A stretch of 64,000 nt of DNA from Fibrobacter sp. (GTDB lineage Bacteria; Fibrobacterota; Fibrobacteria; Fibrobacterales; Fibrobacteraceae). The stretch spans positions 62,001 to 126,000 of the forward strand of contig JAKSIJ010000001.1 in NCBI GenBank assembly GCA_024398875.1, in the 5' to 3' direction. The number at the start of each line of letters is the position of its first letter. Positions within the stretch are counted from its first letter, which is position 1. The translations under genes were made by a program, and so were the position numbers. The notes under the pieces were generated by a model. It was not told where the DNA came from and searched no databases. It saw only the letters and a program-made list of their open reading frames with translations. This document shows, piece after piece, positions 12,320 to 58,598 of this stretch.

Positions 12320-13231
12320 ATGCTTTTATCGGTCATCATTCCCGTCTATAACGAAGAAGAAATCGTAGCCAAGACTTACGAGGTTTTGGAAAGTGAATTA
12401 AAAGACATTGAGCACGAGCTCATCTTCGTGAACGATGGTTCAAAAGACCGCACCCGAGAAATCGTGGAAGGACTGCTCCCAGGCAATCCCAACAACAAGA
12501 TTATCAACTTCAGCCGCAATTTCGGGCACCAAGCCGCCTTCAGTGCAGGTCTTGACAAGGCGACTGGCGATGCGGTTGTGATCATTGACGGCGATTTGCA
12601 GGACCCTCCAAGCCTCATCCATGAGATGATTGCTAAATGGAAAGAAGGCTATCAGGTTGTTTATGCCCAACGAAACAAGCGTGCCGGAGAAACTCTTTTC
12701 AAACGCTTTACCGCTTTCTGCTTCTACCGACTGATTGGAAAACTCACCAGCATTGATATTCCTGCAGATACCGGCGATTACAGGCTCATGGACCGCTGTG
12801 TGGTGGACCAGTTGAAAAATCTTCCCGAACGTAGTCGATTCCTTCGCGGGCTTGTATGCTGGGTAGGCTTCAAAAAAATCGGCGTGAAATACGACCGGGC
12901 AGAGCGCACTGCAGGGCAGTCCAAATACCCCTTGAAAAAAATGGTGCGACTCGCTGCAGACGGCATTACCGGTTTCAGTTCCGCGCCACTAAAAGTCAGT
13001 TTCTATTTTGGAATGATTGCCACCGTGGTAGCGTTTGGTGTTTTTGTCTGGTCTATTTTGGAAAAATTTCTTTCTCCAGAAACTACGGTTCCTGGCTGGG
13101 CATCCCTCATGACGGCCATCGTATTTTTTGCCGGCGTGCAACTCATGTCCATCGGCATTCTTGGAGCCTACATCGGACGCATTTACGACGAAGTCAAGCA
13201 GCGCCCGCTGTATATCGAAGACAAGAAATAA
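12320..13231 (+). CDS. GT2 glycosyltransferase, polyprenyl-phosphate sugar synthase (DPM1/GtrB-like)
   Basis: 303 residues. The GT-A domain begins SVIIPVYNEEEIVAKTYEVL and has the metal-binding DGD (VVIIDGDLQDPP). It continues with TGDYRLMDR and GQSKYPLKKMVRLAADGI, typical of the DPM1/GtrB group. Two membrane segments lie near residues 228-250 and 262-285, followed by GAYIGRIYDEVKQRPLY. It would transfer a sugar from a nucleotide donor to undecaprenyl phosphate on the cytoplasmic face. The GT-C enzyme 118 bp upstream on the same strand is the likely user. The sugar cannot be read from the sequence. Confidence 0.88.
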   Translation: MLLSVIIPVYNEEEIVAKTYEVLESELKDIEHELIFVNDGSKDRTREIVEGLLPGNPNNKIINFSRNFGHQAAFSAGLDKATGDAVVIIDGDLQDPPSLIHEMIAKWKEGYQVVYAQRNKRAGETLFKRFTAFCFYRLIGKLTSIDIPADTGDYRLMDRCVVDQLKNLPERSRFLRGLVCWVGFKKIGVKYDRAERTAGQSKYPLKKMVRLAADGITGFSSAPLKVSFYFGMIATVVAFGVFVWSILEKFLSPETTVPGWASLMTAIVFFAGVQLMSIGILGAYIGRIYDEVKQRPLYIEDKK

Positions 13232-45023: not shown

Positions 45024-45542
45024 TTAAACCTCCGCTTCGTTGTTCGATTTCCCTTCATATCTTGGATTGTATTTGTAATGCAGACAGGCTTCTACCAGTT
45101 CACTTGCAAATGGATTTGTTTCTTTCCCATCAAAAAGGACATTTATTCGACGGCAATTTTCCTTAATCCATCCACCAATATTTTCATTGGTTAGTTTGAA
45201 ATTCATTTTCATTTTATCATCATTCAAAATGGAACTTGCTAGGTTACTTTTGGAATAAGTTGGATTATAATGTTGATAAGAAAATCTGGCATTACTTTTT
45301 ATCCCAACTCGTCCTATTTTAAGGAAACTCTTTTCCTTTGGACAATAGAACATATATACAGCAGTTTTCCCTTTTGGCAAAGGCTTCGGTTTATGAGGTA
45401 AACCTAGGTCATCAATTTCATATTTTGAGGAAGGATTCTTTTCGCTCATAGCCTTCAATACTTTATTGACAGTCTTGGATATTTCTTTTAAGAAGGAATC
45501 GGATTTACCCTTAGTTATGGCAGTTGTTCTCAACTTTCCCAT
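45024..45542 (-). CDS. GIY-YIG nuclease-like protein
   Basis: 172 residues, cytoplasmic (no signal). The core reads TAVYMFYCPKEKSFLKIGRV, which fits the two short strands of the GIY-YIG fold (VYMF and LKIG). ARFSYQHYNPTYSKSNLASS follows, with the conserved Arg and His, then ELVEACLHYKYNPRYEG carrying the catalytic-type Glu and a final Asn. This motif order occurs in a group usually annotated GIY-YIG nuclease family. It lies between two FISUMP lipoprotein genes with gaps of 19 and 1 bp. Nuclease activity and target are inferred. Confidence 0.7.
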   Translation of the reverse strand: MGKLRTTAITKGKSDSFLKEISKTVNKVLKAMSEKNPSSKYEIDDLGLPHKPKPLPKGKTAVYMFYCPKEKSFLKIGRVGIKSNARFSYQHYNPTYSKSNLASSILNDDKMKMNFKLTNENIGGWIKENCRRINVLFDGKETNPFASELVEACLHYKYNPRYEGKSNNEAEV

Positions 45543-53689: not shown

Positions 53690-53986
53690 TTACTTCTTAG
53701 CAGCCTTGACCTTAGCAGCGGTAGCCTTGAGAGCAGCACCAGCCTTGAAACCAACGGTCTTGGAAGCCTTGATCTTGATCTTTTCGCCAGTGAGAGGATT
53801 GCGGCCATCGCGAGCAGCGCGAGTCTTCACAGCGAAGGTGCCGAAGCCGATGAGCTGGACGTTGCCGTCCTTCTTGATGCCAGCAGCGATACCGTCGAGG
53901 ACAGCGTCAACAGCGCGGCCTGCAGCAGCCTTGGAATCGAATGCCTTGCTAGCGAGTACGGCTTCAATGAGATCTTGTTTGTTCAT
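53690..53986 (-). CDS. HU-family DNA-binding protein
   Basis: 98 residues: MNKQDLIEAVLASKAFDSKA, then the HU core VQLIGFGTFAVKTRAARDGR and NPLTGEKIKIKASKTVGFKA. The C-terminus is extended and Lys/Ala-rich (ALKATAAKVKAAKK). It binds and bends DNA as a dimer and shapes the nucleoid. The ribosome site AGGAG lies inside the palindrome TTAACTC/GAGTTAA (53990-54005), so translation may be feedback-controlled. Monocistronic with its own terminator. Confidence 0.94.
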   Translation of the reverse strand: MNKQDLIEAVLASKAFDSKAAAGRAVDAVLDGIAAGIKKDGNVQLIGFGTFAVKTRAARDGRNPLTGEKIKIKASKTVGFKAGAALKATAAKVKAAKK

Positions 53987-54097: not shown

Positions 54098-55234
54098 TCA
54101 AGCCTCGGGGGGCGGTTCGGTCTTTTCAGAGTCCAAATTTTCTGAGCGACTAGCCCGTTCCTGGAGCTTGCGGAGGTACACCAAGCAAAGGCAAGTGAAT
54201 GGGATAGCAACAAGTAACCCTAAGAAGCCCAACAACTTACCCCACACAGAAAGTGAAAGAAGAATGCCCACAGGAGGCAGGTCCATAGACTTCCCGACAA
54301 TGTGGGGAACCAGGAAAAAGTCCTGAATAACTTGCACCACCAGGTAGATGGCGAGGATAATGAGGGCCACCTCCCAAAACGGCATTCCCGTATTGAGGGC
54401 ATGCATAATGGCCAAAAGCAGGGCCAAAGGGATGGTGGTGAGCTGCATATAGGGAATCATGTTCAAGGCGCCGGAGAAAAGCCCGAAAGCCACCCCCATC
54501 GGGAGCCCCATCAAGCCAAATCCTATAGCATAAAGAACGCCAACCGTCAAGGCCACCAGAGACTGTGCGCGGAAATATGCCCCCATAAAACGGTTCGTTT
54601 CTGCCGCAAAAGAGCTGGCTTCGTCGCGGAAACGCACGGGAATGAGGCCCATAACGCCTTTTCTGAGTTTTGGCATGTCCAGCATAATGAACACCAGGTA
54701 CATGAAAATGATGGCAGCGCTAGAAAACCAGAAGAGAACCGTGGTAGACGCGGAAAGCACGCCCCAGGCCTTGGGAAGCACGCCGGAAGCCACATTCTGC
54801 ACTTCACTCCAGAAATCCAGGCTCTGCATGGCTGTAGCAAGTTTATCCCAGGAAATCATGTTCTGGATAGATTCCCAGGAATTTGCAGGCAACAAGTTGG
54901 AAAGCCTAGCAGACCAATCCGAATCCGTAAACATCTTGGATATCATGGAGCCCAGAGACTGCACTTCTCGTACAACCAGCGGAATGAAAAACTTGCAGAA
55001 ACCGGCAATAATGAGAGCCGCCGCGAGAAGCACCGTCACCACTGCGATAATGCGGTGCTTAAACTTCTTTTCCAGTTTTCCCACGATGGGGTCCACGATA
55101 TAAGCCAGAAGGAATGCAGCAAAGAAGGGGAAAAGCACCCCGCGGAGGTAATAAACCAGCGCGAGAATGGCAACAGCACCAACTGCCGTCAGAATAAACC
55201 GCATGATTCTATCTAAGGTCCACTGCCTACGCAT
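54098..55234 (-). CDS. AI-2E/PerM family membrane transporter
   Basis: 378 residues with about seven or eight membrane segments. Typical family pieces are FPFFAAFLLAYIVDPIVGKL, GVLYAIGFGLMGLPMGVAFG, LNMIPYMQLTTIPLALLLAI and VVQVIQDFFLVPHIVGKSM, then GKLLGFLGLLVAIPFTCL. The family includes exporters proposed for autoinducer-2 and Na+/H+ antiporters; the substrate cannot be read here. The start overlaps the stop of the half-AraC gene by 8 bases, so it is the last gene of a four-gene operon. Confidence 0.88.
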   Translation of the reverse strand: MRRQWTLDRIMRFILTAVGAVAILALVYYLRGVLFPFFAAFLLAYIVDPIVGKLEKKFKHRIIAVVTVLLAAALIIAGFCKFFIPLVVREVQSLGSMISKMFTDSDWSARLSNLLPANSWESIQNMISWDKLATAMQSLDFWSEVQNVASGVLPKAWGVLSASTTVLFWFSSAAIIFMYLVFIMLDMPKLRKGVMGLIPVRFRDEASSFAAETNRFMGAYFRAQSLVALTVGVLYAIGFGLMGLPMGVAFGLFSGALNMIPYMQLTTIPLALLLAIMHALNTGMPFWEVALIILAIYLVVQVIQDFFLVPHIVGKSMDLPPVGILLSLSVWGKLLGFLGLLVAIPFTCLCLVYLRKLQERASRSENLDSEKTEPPPEA

Positions 55235-56138
55235 TTTTACGCCTGTATTCTAGAGGTTTCTGCTTATATATTTTACAAAAATGTCGTTCAAAAGATGAGG
55301 GAGATTTTTCTCCAACGGTAATGGCAATTTCTGCAATGGAGCGGTCCGTGGTCTTCAGAAGCTTCGCCGCCTTCTCCATCCGCTTTACCAGTTCCGCACT
55401 CTCGGGCTTTTTCCGAACGAGAACCACCACGAAAGCAATTAGGGCAACCACCCACAAGCCTAAGGCAAAGAACATTCCTTTCTCAAAATCGCGGTTCACG
55501 CCCCACAAGCGGATGGACTTAAGCATAATGCTATCGGGAATCCCGCGGAGAATACCTTCCCCATTCACCACTTCCAGGAACACACCCCGATGGAAGAAGG
55601 TGAGGCCATCATCCTTATCCAGGCCCTGAGCTGCAAGCCACCAATCCGGAACCTTGAAATCCCTAAGTGCAGCCTTGGCTTCCACCTCATCAAAAGTCGC
55701 TGAGAAGGAATAGTTCAGCGGGCGATAACTGAAGGGGTTTCCCTTTTTCGAATAAACCGGATCGTCATTCCAAATCCGCAACTGCACATAGCGCATGCGA
55801 TCTACCGAAGTAACCACCGCAATAGAATCATACTTTGAGAAATCAAAGAAACCGGCCGGACGCTTGTTCACAGACATGAGGTTGAACCCGATTCCCGCAT
55901 AGGGATAGGCTACTCCGGAGCGGATATTGATGGAAGCGTAAATTGCGGTGTCCACTACGGCAAGTTGCGCAGAAGAGCCCCCGCCCAAAGCCTCATCAGA
56001 GGGCGCATAGACTTCGTATGGCGTCTTCGGAAAAATCTCCACATATGAAGTTCGAAAAGCAAAAAAGGCAAAGGCCCAAATCGCTCCCAAAATCACCCAG
56101 ACAATGGGGAAAATAATCTTACTTTTTTTGCTCATCAT
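55227..56138 (-). CDS. Membrane-anchored regulator: periplasmic CIA30/CBM-like sensor and half AraC-type DNA-binding domain
   Basis: 303 residues. Membrane segment 1 is at about 8-28 (IIFPIVWVILGAIWAFAFFA). A periplasmic domain of about 190 residues contains VAYPYAGIGFNLMSVNKRPA and SKYDSIAVVTSVDRMRYVQL. Membrane segment 2 is near 222-242. The cytoplasmic end (AAKLLKTTDRSIAEIAITVG, then SSFERHFCKIYKQKPLEYRR) matches only the second helix-turn-helix of an AraC domain; the first is absent. It would sense a periplasmic ligand and bind DNA from the membrane, probably as a dimer. It overlaps both neighbours (20 and 8 bp). Confidence 0.78.
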   Translation of the reverse strand: MMSKKSKIIFPIVWVILGAIWAFAFFAFRTSYVEIFPKTPYEVYAPSDEALGGGSSAQLAVVDTAIYASINIRSGVAYPYAGIGFNLMSVNKRPAGFFDFSKYDSIAVVTSVDRMRYVQLRIWNDDPVYSKKGNPFSYRPLNYSFSATFDEVEAKAALRDFKVPDWWLAAQGLDKDDGLTFFHRGVFLEVVNGEGILRGIPDSIMLKSIRLWGVNRDFEKGMFFALGLWVVALIAFVVVLVRKKPESAELVKRMEKAAKLLKTTDRSIAEIAITVGEKSPSSFERHFCKIYKQKPLEYRRKNA

Positions 56139-56850
56139 TCAAGATTTTATGGCGACGACCCACAGCAACAATGGTTAGCACCAAGAATATGCCGAGAACT
56201 ATACCGAAGGCGATATTGCTCATACCGCGAGCAGTTACGCTATAGAAGGTCACCGAGAACTTTGAACCGCGAGACTGGTTCCAGCCGGGAGCGATTTCCA
56301 AGCGAGCAGCAGCCTCCATATGGCGCTGCGTCAGTTCCGGGTCGGCTTTTGCATTTTCATACCAGAATTCCGGGGTATACAAATGCTCCACAGGAATGGC
56401 AACGCGCTGGCGACCCTCGCGAAGCGGCAGTTCCTTCATCAAAAGCCGGAAGGTGCGAGGCTTCTTGATGTCTGTAACGTCGGGGTCAAAAGTCCAAAGC
56501 TTCACAAGAACTTCTCGGGTTCCATGAACTTCCACATCAAAAACCAGAGTATCTACAAATGTCCAGTTTTTATATAGATGTGTACTGGCGCTATCCAAAT
56601 TCCAAAGCAAGCCGCACCAAGCCGCCTTGGAAGTATCCGCCCCCAATCGACAGCTGAAGTGCAAAGCATCTTCGCCCATCTTGAATTCCACCGCAGATTC
56701 GCCGCCATCAGCGATGTCATCGTAAGCGATAACCGTAGCGCCTGTAGGCAACGGGAATACGGGTTCTTCAAAATAATACTTGGGCATAAAGTAGTAGACC
56801 GCCAAAACGACAGCCGCAATCAAGCCCAATATGGTGTAGGTTTTTCTCAT
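56119..56850 (-). CDS. Membrane protein with periplasmic CIA30-like domain, no output domain
   Basis: 243 residues: membrane segment 1 (about 7-22, ILGLIAAVVLAVYYF), a periplasmic domain with VIAYDDIADGGESAVEFK and SKAAWCGLLWNLDS, and membrane segment 2 (about 210-232). A short charged tail (GRRHKILNDEQKK) ends it. The layout is that of the next gene without the helix-turn-helix. The two overlap by 20 bp and are probably paralogues that work as a heteromer. One could bind ligand, the other DNA. Carbohydrate sensing is inferred from the fold impression. Confidence 0.7.
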   Translation of the reverse strand: MRKTYTILGLIAAVVLAVYYFMPKYYFEEPVFPLPTGATVIAYDDIADGGESAVEFKMGEDALHFSCRLGADTSKAAWCGLLWNLDSASTHLYKNWTFVDTLVFDVEVHGTREVLVKLWTFDPDVTDIKKPRTFRLLMKELPLREGRQRVAIPVEHLYTPEFWYENAKADPELTQRHMEAAARLEIAPGWNQSRGSKFSVTFYSVTARGMSNIAFGIVLGIFLVLTIVAVGRRHKILNDEQKK

Positions 56851-56852
56851 GA

Positions 56853-57356
56853 CTATTCGAAAATATCTCTAAAATGGTGCTCGTACTGGATTAAATCCAA
56901 AGGATCTTCTTCTGGCATTTTTTCTCCGAAAACCTTGGAAACCAGATTATCCAGCCAACGAATGAAGAAAAAGTGATGTTTACCCTTGCGTTCCACAAGA
57001 TGCACGGACGTATTCAGCGTATGTTCCAAAAGACGGAGAGTCAATGACGGCGTCAAGTGAAACATTCCACAACAAGTGGTCACCTTGCCTGGATAGCCAT
57101 AATCTGGAAGAGTTCCCTCTACGAGCGGCTCGCCGTGATCGATGCACTTTGCGTTTGCTGTGTCCGGATCTACAGGATTTTTTGCAGACAGAGCCTTGAA
57201 CCAAAGTTCCCGCGTCTTATCCAGAAGTTCGCTCCGGAAAGGCATGGTCTGGTTACACGGGAAAAAAGCGGAATAGCACTTGGGGCAAATCCGCAAATTC
57301 AAGTGGGGAAAATTGATTTCCCGAACTTCTGCAGAACAAAAAGGACACTGACTCAT
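56853..57356 (-). CDS. Small double zinc-ribbon protein
   Basis: 167 residues from the ATG at 57356. There is no ribosome site, and TATATT (57363-57368) ends 6 nt before the ATG, so the mRNA is probably leaderless. The N-terminal zinc ribbon is CPFC (QCPFCSAEVRE) with CPKC (LRICPKCYSAFFPC). A second Cys/His cluster follows (KCIDHGEPL, then TTCCGMFHLTPSL). Family not recognised. The membrane-regulator genes begin 2 bp after the stop, so it leads their operon. It may be an assembly or regulatory partner. Confidence 0.7.
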   Translation of the reverse strand: MSQCPFCSAEVREINFPHLNLRICPKCYSAFFPCNQTMPFRSELLDKTRELWFKALSAKNPVDPDTANAKCIDHGEPLVEGTLPDYGYPGKVTTCCGMFHLTPSLTLRLLEHTLNTSVHLVERKGKHHFFFIRWLDNLVSKVFGEKMPEEDPLDLIQYEHHFRDIFE

Positions 57357-57375
57357 AGGCAAAATATACTATATT
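57348..57375 (+). promoter_or_regulatory. Divergent promoters with abutting -10 hexamers
   Basis: The plus-strand -10 TATATT (57370-57375) serves the riboswitch-cytX transcript, with CTGACT (57348-57353) 16 bp upstream. The minus-strand -10 TATATT (57363-57368) serves the zinc-ribbon operon. Only one base separates the two hexamers, so two polymerases could not occupy them together. Confidence 0.6.
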
Positions 57376-57385
57376 TTGACCATCA

Positions 57386-57466
57386 TTCGGGGTGCTAGCG
57401 TCTTAAATTAGGCGTATGCTGAGAAAATACCCGACAACCTGATCAGGGTAATTCCTGCGGAGGTAA
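57386..57466 (+). ncRNA. TPP riboswitch (THI element)
   Basis: The conserved pieces are in order: CGGGGTGC near 57388, GCTGAGA (57418-57424), ATACCC, AACCTGATCAGGGTAATTCC (57436-57455), then GCGGAGG. The last bases include the ribosome site GGAGG (57459-57463) of cytX. TPP binding would therefore hide it and block translation. There is no terminator between the aptamer and the gene. Confidence 0.93.
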
Positions 57467-57467
57467 T

Positions 57468-58598
57468 ATGAAGTCAAAAGGTGTATTCACCAATGGCCTT
57501 ATTTGGTTTGGGGCCGCCATCTCTATAGCAGAAATTGAAGCCGGCATCCAATGTGGAAGCAATTGGGTGCCTCTTATTCTAGGGCATTTTCTTGGCGGGC
57601 TAATGCTTTTCGCCATGGGAATTCTAGGTGCAAAATCTAAGAAAAATGCCATGGAAACCGTCAAAGAGGGCTTCGGCAATGTTGGTTCAAAAATCTTTGC
57701 ATCACTGAATTTTCTTCAACTGGTTGGTTGGACCTCAGTGATGATTACCCAGGCAGCAGCAGTTCTAGACCAGTTGGGAAATCCATTCAGCCTCCCCCTA
57801 ACCTATTCCATCATTGGCGTCTTTGTCTTATTCTGGATTTTTGTGGGGCCGCAAAACAAAGCCCACCTGGGAACCATAGGGATGAGTATTCTCACCGTCC
57901 TTTTGGTCTACATGTCTTACAAGCTATTCTCGCTAAGCCCTAAAAATCTTACAAGTTCTGCGGGAGCATCTTTCTGGCAAGCTTTTGAAATTTCTATAGC
58001 CATGCCGCTTTCCTTTCTGCCCTTAATTTCTGATTACACAAAAAATGCCGAAAAGCCCGTGACGGAGACCCTCGTGTCCGCATTAGCCTACACCATCGCA
58101 AGTCTATGGATGTATGCCATCGGAATTTTCATTTCCATCTGCACTGATGCAGGCATTTGTACGCCCGAATTCACCTCTATTCTACAAATATTGAAAATTG
58201 GGGTTGCAGGAATCTTAATCGTTCTTCTATCAACTGTAACGACAACTTTTTTAGATGTATATTCCGCCGGGGAATCCGCCCACACCATTATCCAAAAGAT
58301 ATCTCCTAAAATCGCAGGAATGAGCACGTGTCTTCTAGGGGTTCTTTTGTGTCTTTTAAAATTCTTTGATTACTATGCAAACTTTTTATACCTCATCGCA
58401 TCCGTTTTCGCCCCTATGGCATCGGTTCTTATTGTAAGCCATTATTTCGTGAAAAAATATCACCCCCATTGGAATGGGTTCGCCTGGTTTATCGGTTTTG
58501 CAGTCTATCAATTCGCAGGGAATTCCCCTATCGGCCCATCCATTTCTGCAATACTTGTCTCCGCATTTGTGTGTGGCATACGGGCATTACGAAATTAG
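57468..58598 (+). CDS. cytX: Putative hydroxymethylpyrimidine permease, NCS1 family (CytX-like)
   Basis: 376 residues with about twelve membrane segments, the size of NCS1 nucleobase:cation symporters. The N-terminal GLIWFGAAISIAEIEAGIQC and GHFLGGLMLFAMGILGAKS resemble CytX. The TPP riboswitch directly upstream indicates that it imports a thiamine precursor, most likely hydroxymethylpyrimidine. It is the only gene of the transcript before a new promoter. Substrate is inferred from the regulation. Confidence 0.85.
   Translation: MKSKGVFTNGLIWFGAAISIAEIEAGIQCGSNWVPLILGHFLGGLMLFAMGILGAKSKKNAMETVKEGFGNVGSKIFASLNFLQLVGWTSVMITQAAAVLDQLGNPFSLPLTYSIIGVFVLFWIFVGPQNKAHLGTIGMSILTVLLVYMSYKLFSLSPKNLTSSAGASFWQAFEISIAMPLSFLPLISDYTKNAEKPVTETLVSALAYTIASLWMYAIGIFISICTDAGICTPEFTSILQILKIGVAGILIVLLSTVTTTFLDVYSAGESAHTIIQKISPKIAGMSTCLLGVLLCLLKFFDYYANFLYLIASVFAPMASVLIVSHYFVKKYHPHWNGFAWFIGFAVYQFAGNSPIGPSISAILVSAFVCGIRALRN

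Follow-up and report, generated by a model that had tools for sequence, protein, structure and literature searches.

A conserved PerM transporter operon of Fibrobacter whose membrane-tethered AraC-type regulator appears to be eroding

Transporters of the PerM/AI-2E family are widespread but poorly understood, and the function of PerM is unsettled in general. Fibrobacter, the source of the operon described here, is a major fibre degrader of the gut. Membrane-integrated one-component regulators of the ToxR/CadC type unite a periplasmic input and a cytosolic helix-turn-helix (HTH) in one membrane protein, as the sensor considered below is predicted to do; ToxR is accompanied by an adjacent HTH-less membrane partner, ToxS, much as the sensor is by a paralogue, and CadC is a homodimeric membrane regulator (PMC5936718). 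In the hybrid two-component systems of Bacteroides with AraC output, periplasmic input is likewise coupled to an AraC-type domain within one membrane protein. AraC/XylS DNA-binding domains themselves comprise two HTH subdomains and a linker helix (about 100 residues), and according to simulations of MarA and Rob it is the first HTH that drives recognition of DNA (PMC8279559). In the literature searched, nothing pertinent came up on AraC regulators of Fibrobacter, on AraC proteins with a single HTH or on AraC factors anchored in the membrane.

The operon lies on the minus strand of the window, that is, the whole stretch of 64,000 nucleotides analysed, which is G000:C1:62001-126000 of a Fibrobacter-like genome. 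From open reading frame calls, its four genes encode in order the zinc ribbon, the paralogue without an HTH, the sensor whose HTH is C-terminal, and PerM, with the following features:

57363..57368, minus strand: TATATT, putative -10 element, 12 nt 5' of the first ATG; hexamer in 59 related loci
56853..57356, minus strand: first gene, zinc-ribbon protein, 167 aa; weak Zn_ribbon_TFIIB match; family-conserved
56119..56850, minus strand: HTH-less paralogue, 243 aa; transmembrane (TM) helix, CBM11/CIA30-like domain, TM helix
55227..56138, minus strand: sensor with half-AraC tail, 303 aa
55497..56051, minus strand: periplasmic CBM11/CIA30-like beta-sandwich of the sensor, residues 30-214 (AlphaFold2 and VIA-align)
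55416..55493, minus strand: second TM helix of the sensor, residues 216-241 (AlphaFold2)
55230..55406, minus strand: cytosolic half-AraC HTH of the sensor, residues 245-303, linker helix and second HTH only (profile match and AlphaFold2)
54098..55234, minus strand: PerM/AI-2E family transporter, 378 aa; PF01594 E 1.4e-49

These coordinates reproduce exactly the spacings given in a preliminary description made from the sequence, with 2 bp between zinc ribbon and paralogue and overlaps of 20 bp between paralogue and sensor and of 8 bp between sensor and PerM, and the overlaps, together with the conservation described below, suggest that the four genes are co-transcribed. The transporter and zinc-ribbon members named there are also recovered: PerM is a full-length match to the Pfam family AI-2E_transport (PF01594; E 1.4e-49, 169.5 bits, profile positions 7-323 of 327), which places it within the AI-2E/PerM family, and the first gene product has visible N-terminal CxxC pairs and a Zn_ribbon_TFIIB match (E 0.01) under the curated cut-off. 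Paralogue and sensor are related to each other (E 2.3e-5 within the same genome) and share a predicted fold. PerM is the only AI-2E protein, and the half HTH the only HTH_18 domain and only AraC-type domain, found in the source genome, whose completeness is 99.3%; a second AraC regulator there was considered and rejected, the HTH_18 search having matched the half HTH alone. An HU-type gene (53690-53986, minus strand) lies downstream of PerM, as it does in a distant locus of genome G124 (L099:6523-6822), an arrangement that suggests old synteny.

The AlphaFold2 model of the sensor, built with 24 homologues and, like all those used here, of a monomer, has a pLDDT of 88 and consists of a TM helix (residues 4-28), a beta-sandwich, a second TM helix (216-241) and then the HTH, while the paralogue (pLDDT 82.6) has a sensor-like layout without the HTH. 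The models thus match the proposal that two proteins carry a carbohydrate-binding-like domain between membrane segments and that only one of them has an HTH. The best structural matches of the two periplasmic domains are CIA30/NDUFAF1 (Z 16.2 for the sensor and 16.8 for the paralogue) and the beta-sandwich of CBM11 (Z 15.5 and 14.9), so that CIA30/NDUFAF1 matches at least as well as CBM11. A sequence-profile search of the PDB matched second HTHs of AraC proteins and not the periplasmic domain. The basis of the CBM/CIA30 assignment is therefore the predicted structure together with weak Pfam CIA30 matches (E 0.007-0.2), and what would point to polysaccharide sensing by these domains is solely their modelled fold.

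The cytosolic tail spans about 60 residues after the second TM helix and has the fold and signature of an AraC/XylS second HTH without the first: residues 252-301 match positions 31-80 of the 80-position HTH_18 profile, its second half only (37.7 bits against a cut-off of 33.6), and the modelled helices (245-263, 268-274, 280-291 and 295-302) superpose on AraC second HTHs of 3oio (0.7 A over 58 residues), ToxT (1.1 A over 60) and DNA-bound AdpA (0.9 A over 61). The C-terminal HTH, on which the preliminary description had made its reading depend, is therefore borne out in prediction. The final 52 residues carry a net charge of +8. When the Fibrobacter half forms are compared with 33 complete AraC domains from the phylum, several of them close relatives and not independent, residue 277, after a conserved Gly, is aromatic in 33/33 complete domains and E or A in 28/28 half forms, and position 284 of the recognition helix is E in 28/28 half forms and in 0/33 complete domains. 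K occupies position 278 in 27/29 half forms, and core residues are invariant across them. Judged from these alignments, the surface of the half domain is altered, the change having come when, or after, the first HTH was lost; the substitutions at 277 and 284 would be compatible either with a new specificity or with loss of DNA binding.

The linkage of these genes, already proposed from the single locus, recurs beyond chance. Their order is the same in all 23 same-genus genomes of the initial comparison, the paralogue alone being absent from one, and across most of the Fibrobacteraceae, although most of the genomes compared are metagenome-assembled (MAGs). The genome missing exactly the paralogue is G006, in which the zinc-ribbon gene borders directly on the sensor gene (L051:3970-5259, on the contig that also holds L177). 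In two divergent genera (G112 and G124) paralogue, sensor-AraC and PerM stand together and the zinc-ribbon gene is elsewhere, for which reason the zinc ribbon is probably a later arrival. Genus g13 (G101, G114, G123; loci L092, L095, L098) has a paralogue-like gene after two other conserved small genes, and no adjoining sensor or PerM was found there. The named relatives retrieved with the sensor are Fibrobacter or Fibrobacterales MAGs, except for an AraC-only match in Rhodobacteraceae (L188).

Within this conserved frame the DNA-binding domain varies: among 70 operon loci, 3 have a complete two-HTH AraC domain, 29 the half domain and 38 none, and the 57 loci within the genus divide into 28 with the half domain and 29 without. 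The complete domains (HTH_18 positions 2-79 of 80, E 8e-23 to 4e-24) occupy the sensor slot, with both HTH subdomains, in three different and divergent genera (G089, G112, G124), and a membrane-tethered regulator is therefore the likely ancestral state; the direction from full to half to none rests partly on long-branch outgroups, although complete AraC joined to this kind of input domain is seen in other families of the phylum as well. On a tree of PerM and paralogue, from which the trait was left out, the distribution takes 8 unordered changes, or 9 losses of the second HTH if loss is irreversible. Several losses have left traces, in that the HTH was lost in frame with an AYRRENA remnant kept in G013/G115, the sensor tails of a 12-member clade end in CRRENAKKLDA-like residues, and G011 has an out-of-frame NRKEYRRKGEK remnant; in these HTH-loss relatives an AGGAGG-like sequence immediately upstream of PerM overlaps the remnant 3' codons, and this overlap may explain the retention of the 3' end of the HTH gene. 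That the losses are assembly artefacts was considered and rejected, as they are common to clades and their junctions carry the remnants. In G128 the half HTH is degenerate (HTH_18 E 0.004).

Similar input domains occur more widely, being fused to complete AraC domains in other families of the phylum (G025, G026, G028, G030). In the source genome a TM - CBM-like - TM segment is fused to GGDEF (L002:1459-2778; G000:C1 near 219700) in a genus-conserved gene that adjoins an SGNH/CE2-like esterase, and in G028 (L060) a similar input domain precedes what reads as kinase and receiver-like sequence. The TM - CBM-like - TM domain seems to serve the phylum as a general-purpose input module.

Selection was gauged by omega computed on close pairs of loci. 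For the periplasmic domain, omega is 0.05-0.16 in pairs with the HTH and 0.05-0.08 in pairs involving HTH-less forms. The constraint on the domain is thus similar whether the HTH is present or absent, from which DNA binding is expected to be unnecessary for the core function. Loci that have kept the HTH show an omega of 0.06-0.18 for it, so that it is not drifting freely; as far as such pairs tell, it is constrained where kept, yet evolutionarily dispensable.

Upstream of the operon, the TATATT hexamer stands at -12 to -15 from the ATG of the first gene in 59 loci, the same in genomes with and without the HTH, and this position predicts a leaderless mRNA. The upstream regions share little beyond this -10-like hexamer; no conserved operator 5' of the operon was seen by eye, and autoregulation through such an operator was rejected on this by-eye comparison and on the identity of the hexamer in HTH-less genomes. 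Elsewhere in the window, starts at 12320, 14729, 20542, 58623 and 60175 (plus strand) and at 45058 (minus strand) have -10-like hexamers 11-15 nt upstream and no obvious Shine-Dalgarno sequence, and leaderless mRNAs may be common in Fibrobacter. A candidate TPP riboswitch (57378-57483, plus strand; E 2.1e-9), whose 50.2 bits fall just below the Rfam cut-off of 54.3, precedes a permease of the cytosine/purine/thiamine type (57468-58598).

We consider it probable, with moderate confidence, that this is a conserved envelope/transport operon in which an ancestral membrane-tethered AraC feedback on transcription is now eroding and the half HTH is accessory. PerM would form its core together with a pair of paralogous periplasmic proteins, CBM11/CIA30-like and anchored in the membrane, and a cytosolic zinc-ribbon protein would accompany them. 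One of the two paralogous proteins would ancestrally have been a complete membrane-tethered AraC one-component regulator, from which, in Fibrobacter, the first HTH has presumably gone and the second, selected where kept, has then been lost repeatedly. Judged by fold, both periplasmic domains may recognise a ligand in the periplasm, either a glycan or a wall-derived compound, and most likely both proteins would act with PerM in the inner membrane, the ancestral AraC tail having passed the ligand state back to transcription; in the source species the half HTH would be an accessory output and not what the operon essentially does, and the main job of the operon is probably independent of gene regulation. 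Of the sensing-plus-transport unit with a regulator acting from the membrane, as first proposed, the conserved unit of PerM and two CBM-like proteins stands, along with the predicted AraC HTH and its complete counterpart in three relatives, whereas regulation as the main function sits poorly with the absence of the HTH from 29/57 genus loci, some nine losses across the family against continued purifying selection on the remaining parts, the altered residues of the half HTH, the lack of a visible operator and a promoter hexamer that is the same with and without the HTH.

The half-AraC protein could instead be a working membrane-tethered transcription factor, in which a periplasmic ligand or dimerisation, perhaps with the paralogue in the manner of ToxS and ToxR, pairs two single HTHs on DNA, and this is possible enough to be taken seriously, if short of probable. 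An HTH predicted with high confidence and lying within 0.7-1.1 A of AraC second HTHs, that of DNA-bound AdpA included, the net charge of +8 over the 52 C-terminal residues, the purifying selection that acts on the HTH and the relatives with complete AraC all speak for it, and two copies in a membrane dimer could, by analogy with CadC, compensate for the missing first HTH. Yet the absent first HTH is reported to be the driver of recognition in MarA/Rob (PMC8279559), which makes canonical DNA binding by the second alone less likely, and the replacement of the invariant aromatic residue at 277 by E or A, the E284 of all half forms and of no canonical domain, the lack of a conserved operator 5' of the operon and the repeated losses weigh in the same direction. 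More doubtful is that the half HTH has given up DNA binding and become a cytosolic protein-interaction bundle, with PerM, the zinc-ribbon protein and RNA polymerase as examples of possible partners: K278 and E284, nearly fixed under purifying selection in place of the canonical residues, would suit such a role, but the strong positive charge is retained, the partners are candidates only, and half of the genus does without the domain. A decaying relic without present role, which about nine independent losses and the degenerate half HTH of G128 might suggest, is improbable given an HTH omega of 0.06-0.18 and core residues invariant across half forms.

We suggest, only tentatively, that a membrane-tethered AraC derivative working with the second HTH only, its recognition helix changed at K278 and E284, represents a still functional stage at which a transcription factor is losing its DNA-binding domain step by step, while sensor and transporter live on in the operon. 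Complete, half and missing DNA-binding domains in one operon slot form a natural series for the dismantling of a one-component regulator, the same series can test whether a single AraC HTH suffices, and the tie between the PerM/AI-2E family and two specific membrane-anchored periplasmic proteins offers a handle on PerM function.

Compared with membrane-integrated one-component regulators in the broad sense, the sensor is predicted to join periplasmic input, TM helix and cytosolic HTH in one chain, but only half of the DNA-binding domain is present here and many orthologues have none of it. Regulators of the ToxR/CadC type differ from it in that the sensor has two TM helices and an HTH that is dispensable across species; the N-terminal winged HTH that strictly defines the ToxR family is not present, the HTH of the sensor being C-terminal and of AraC type. 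The hybrid two-component systems of Bacteroides are set apart by the histidine kinase and receiver that the sensor lacks. With the AraC/XylS DNA-binding domain (PF12833; YesN, ToxT, MarA, AdpA) it shares the linker helix and the second HTH, which superpose at 0.7-1.1 A across 57-61 residues with at most 40% identity, but it is without the first HTH, and the aromatic residue at 277 has given way to E or A, position 284 to E and position 278 to K. CBM11 and CIA30/NDUFAF1 resemble sensor and paralogue at the level of fold (Z 15-17 across about 160 residues), at 9-16% identity, and here a TM helix stands at each end of the beta-sandwich. PerM is a full-length family member (PF01594, E 1.4e-49) that differs from other PerM/AI-2E transporters in its place within a fixed operon with two CBM-like membrane proteins.
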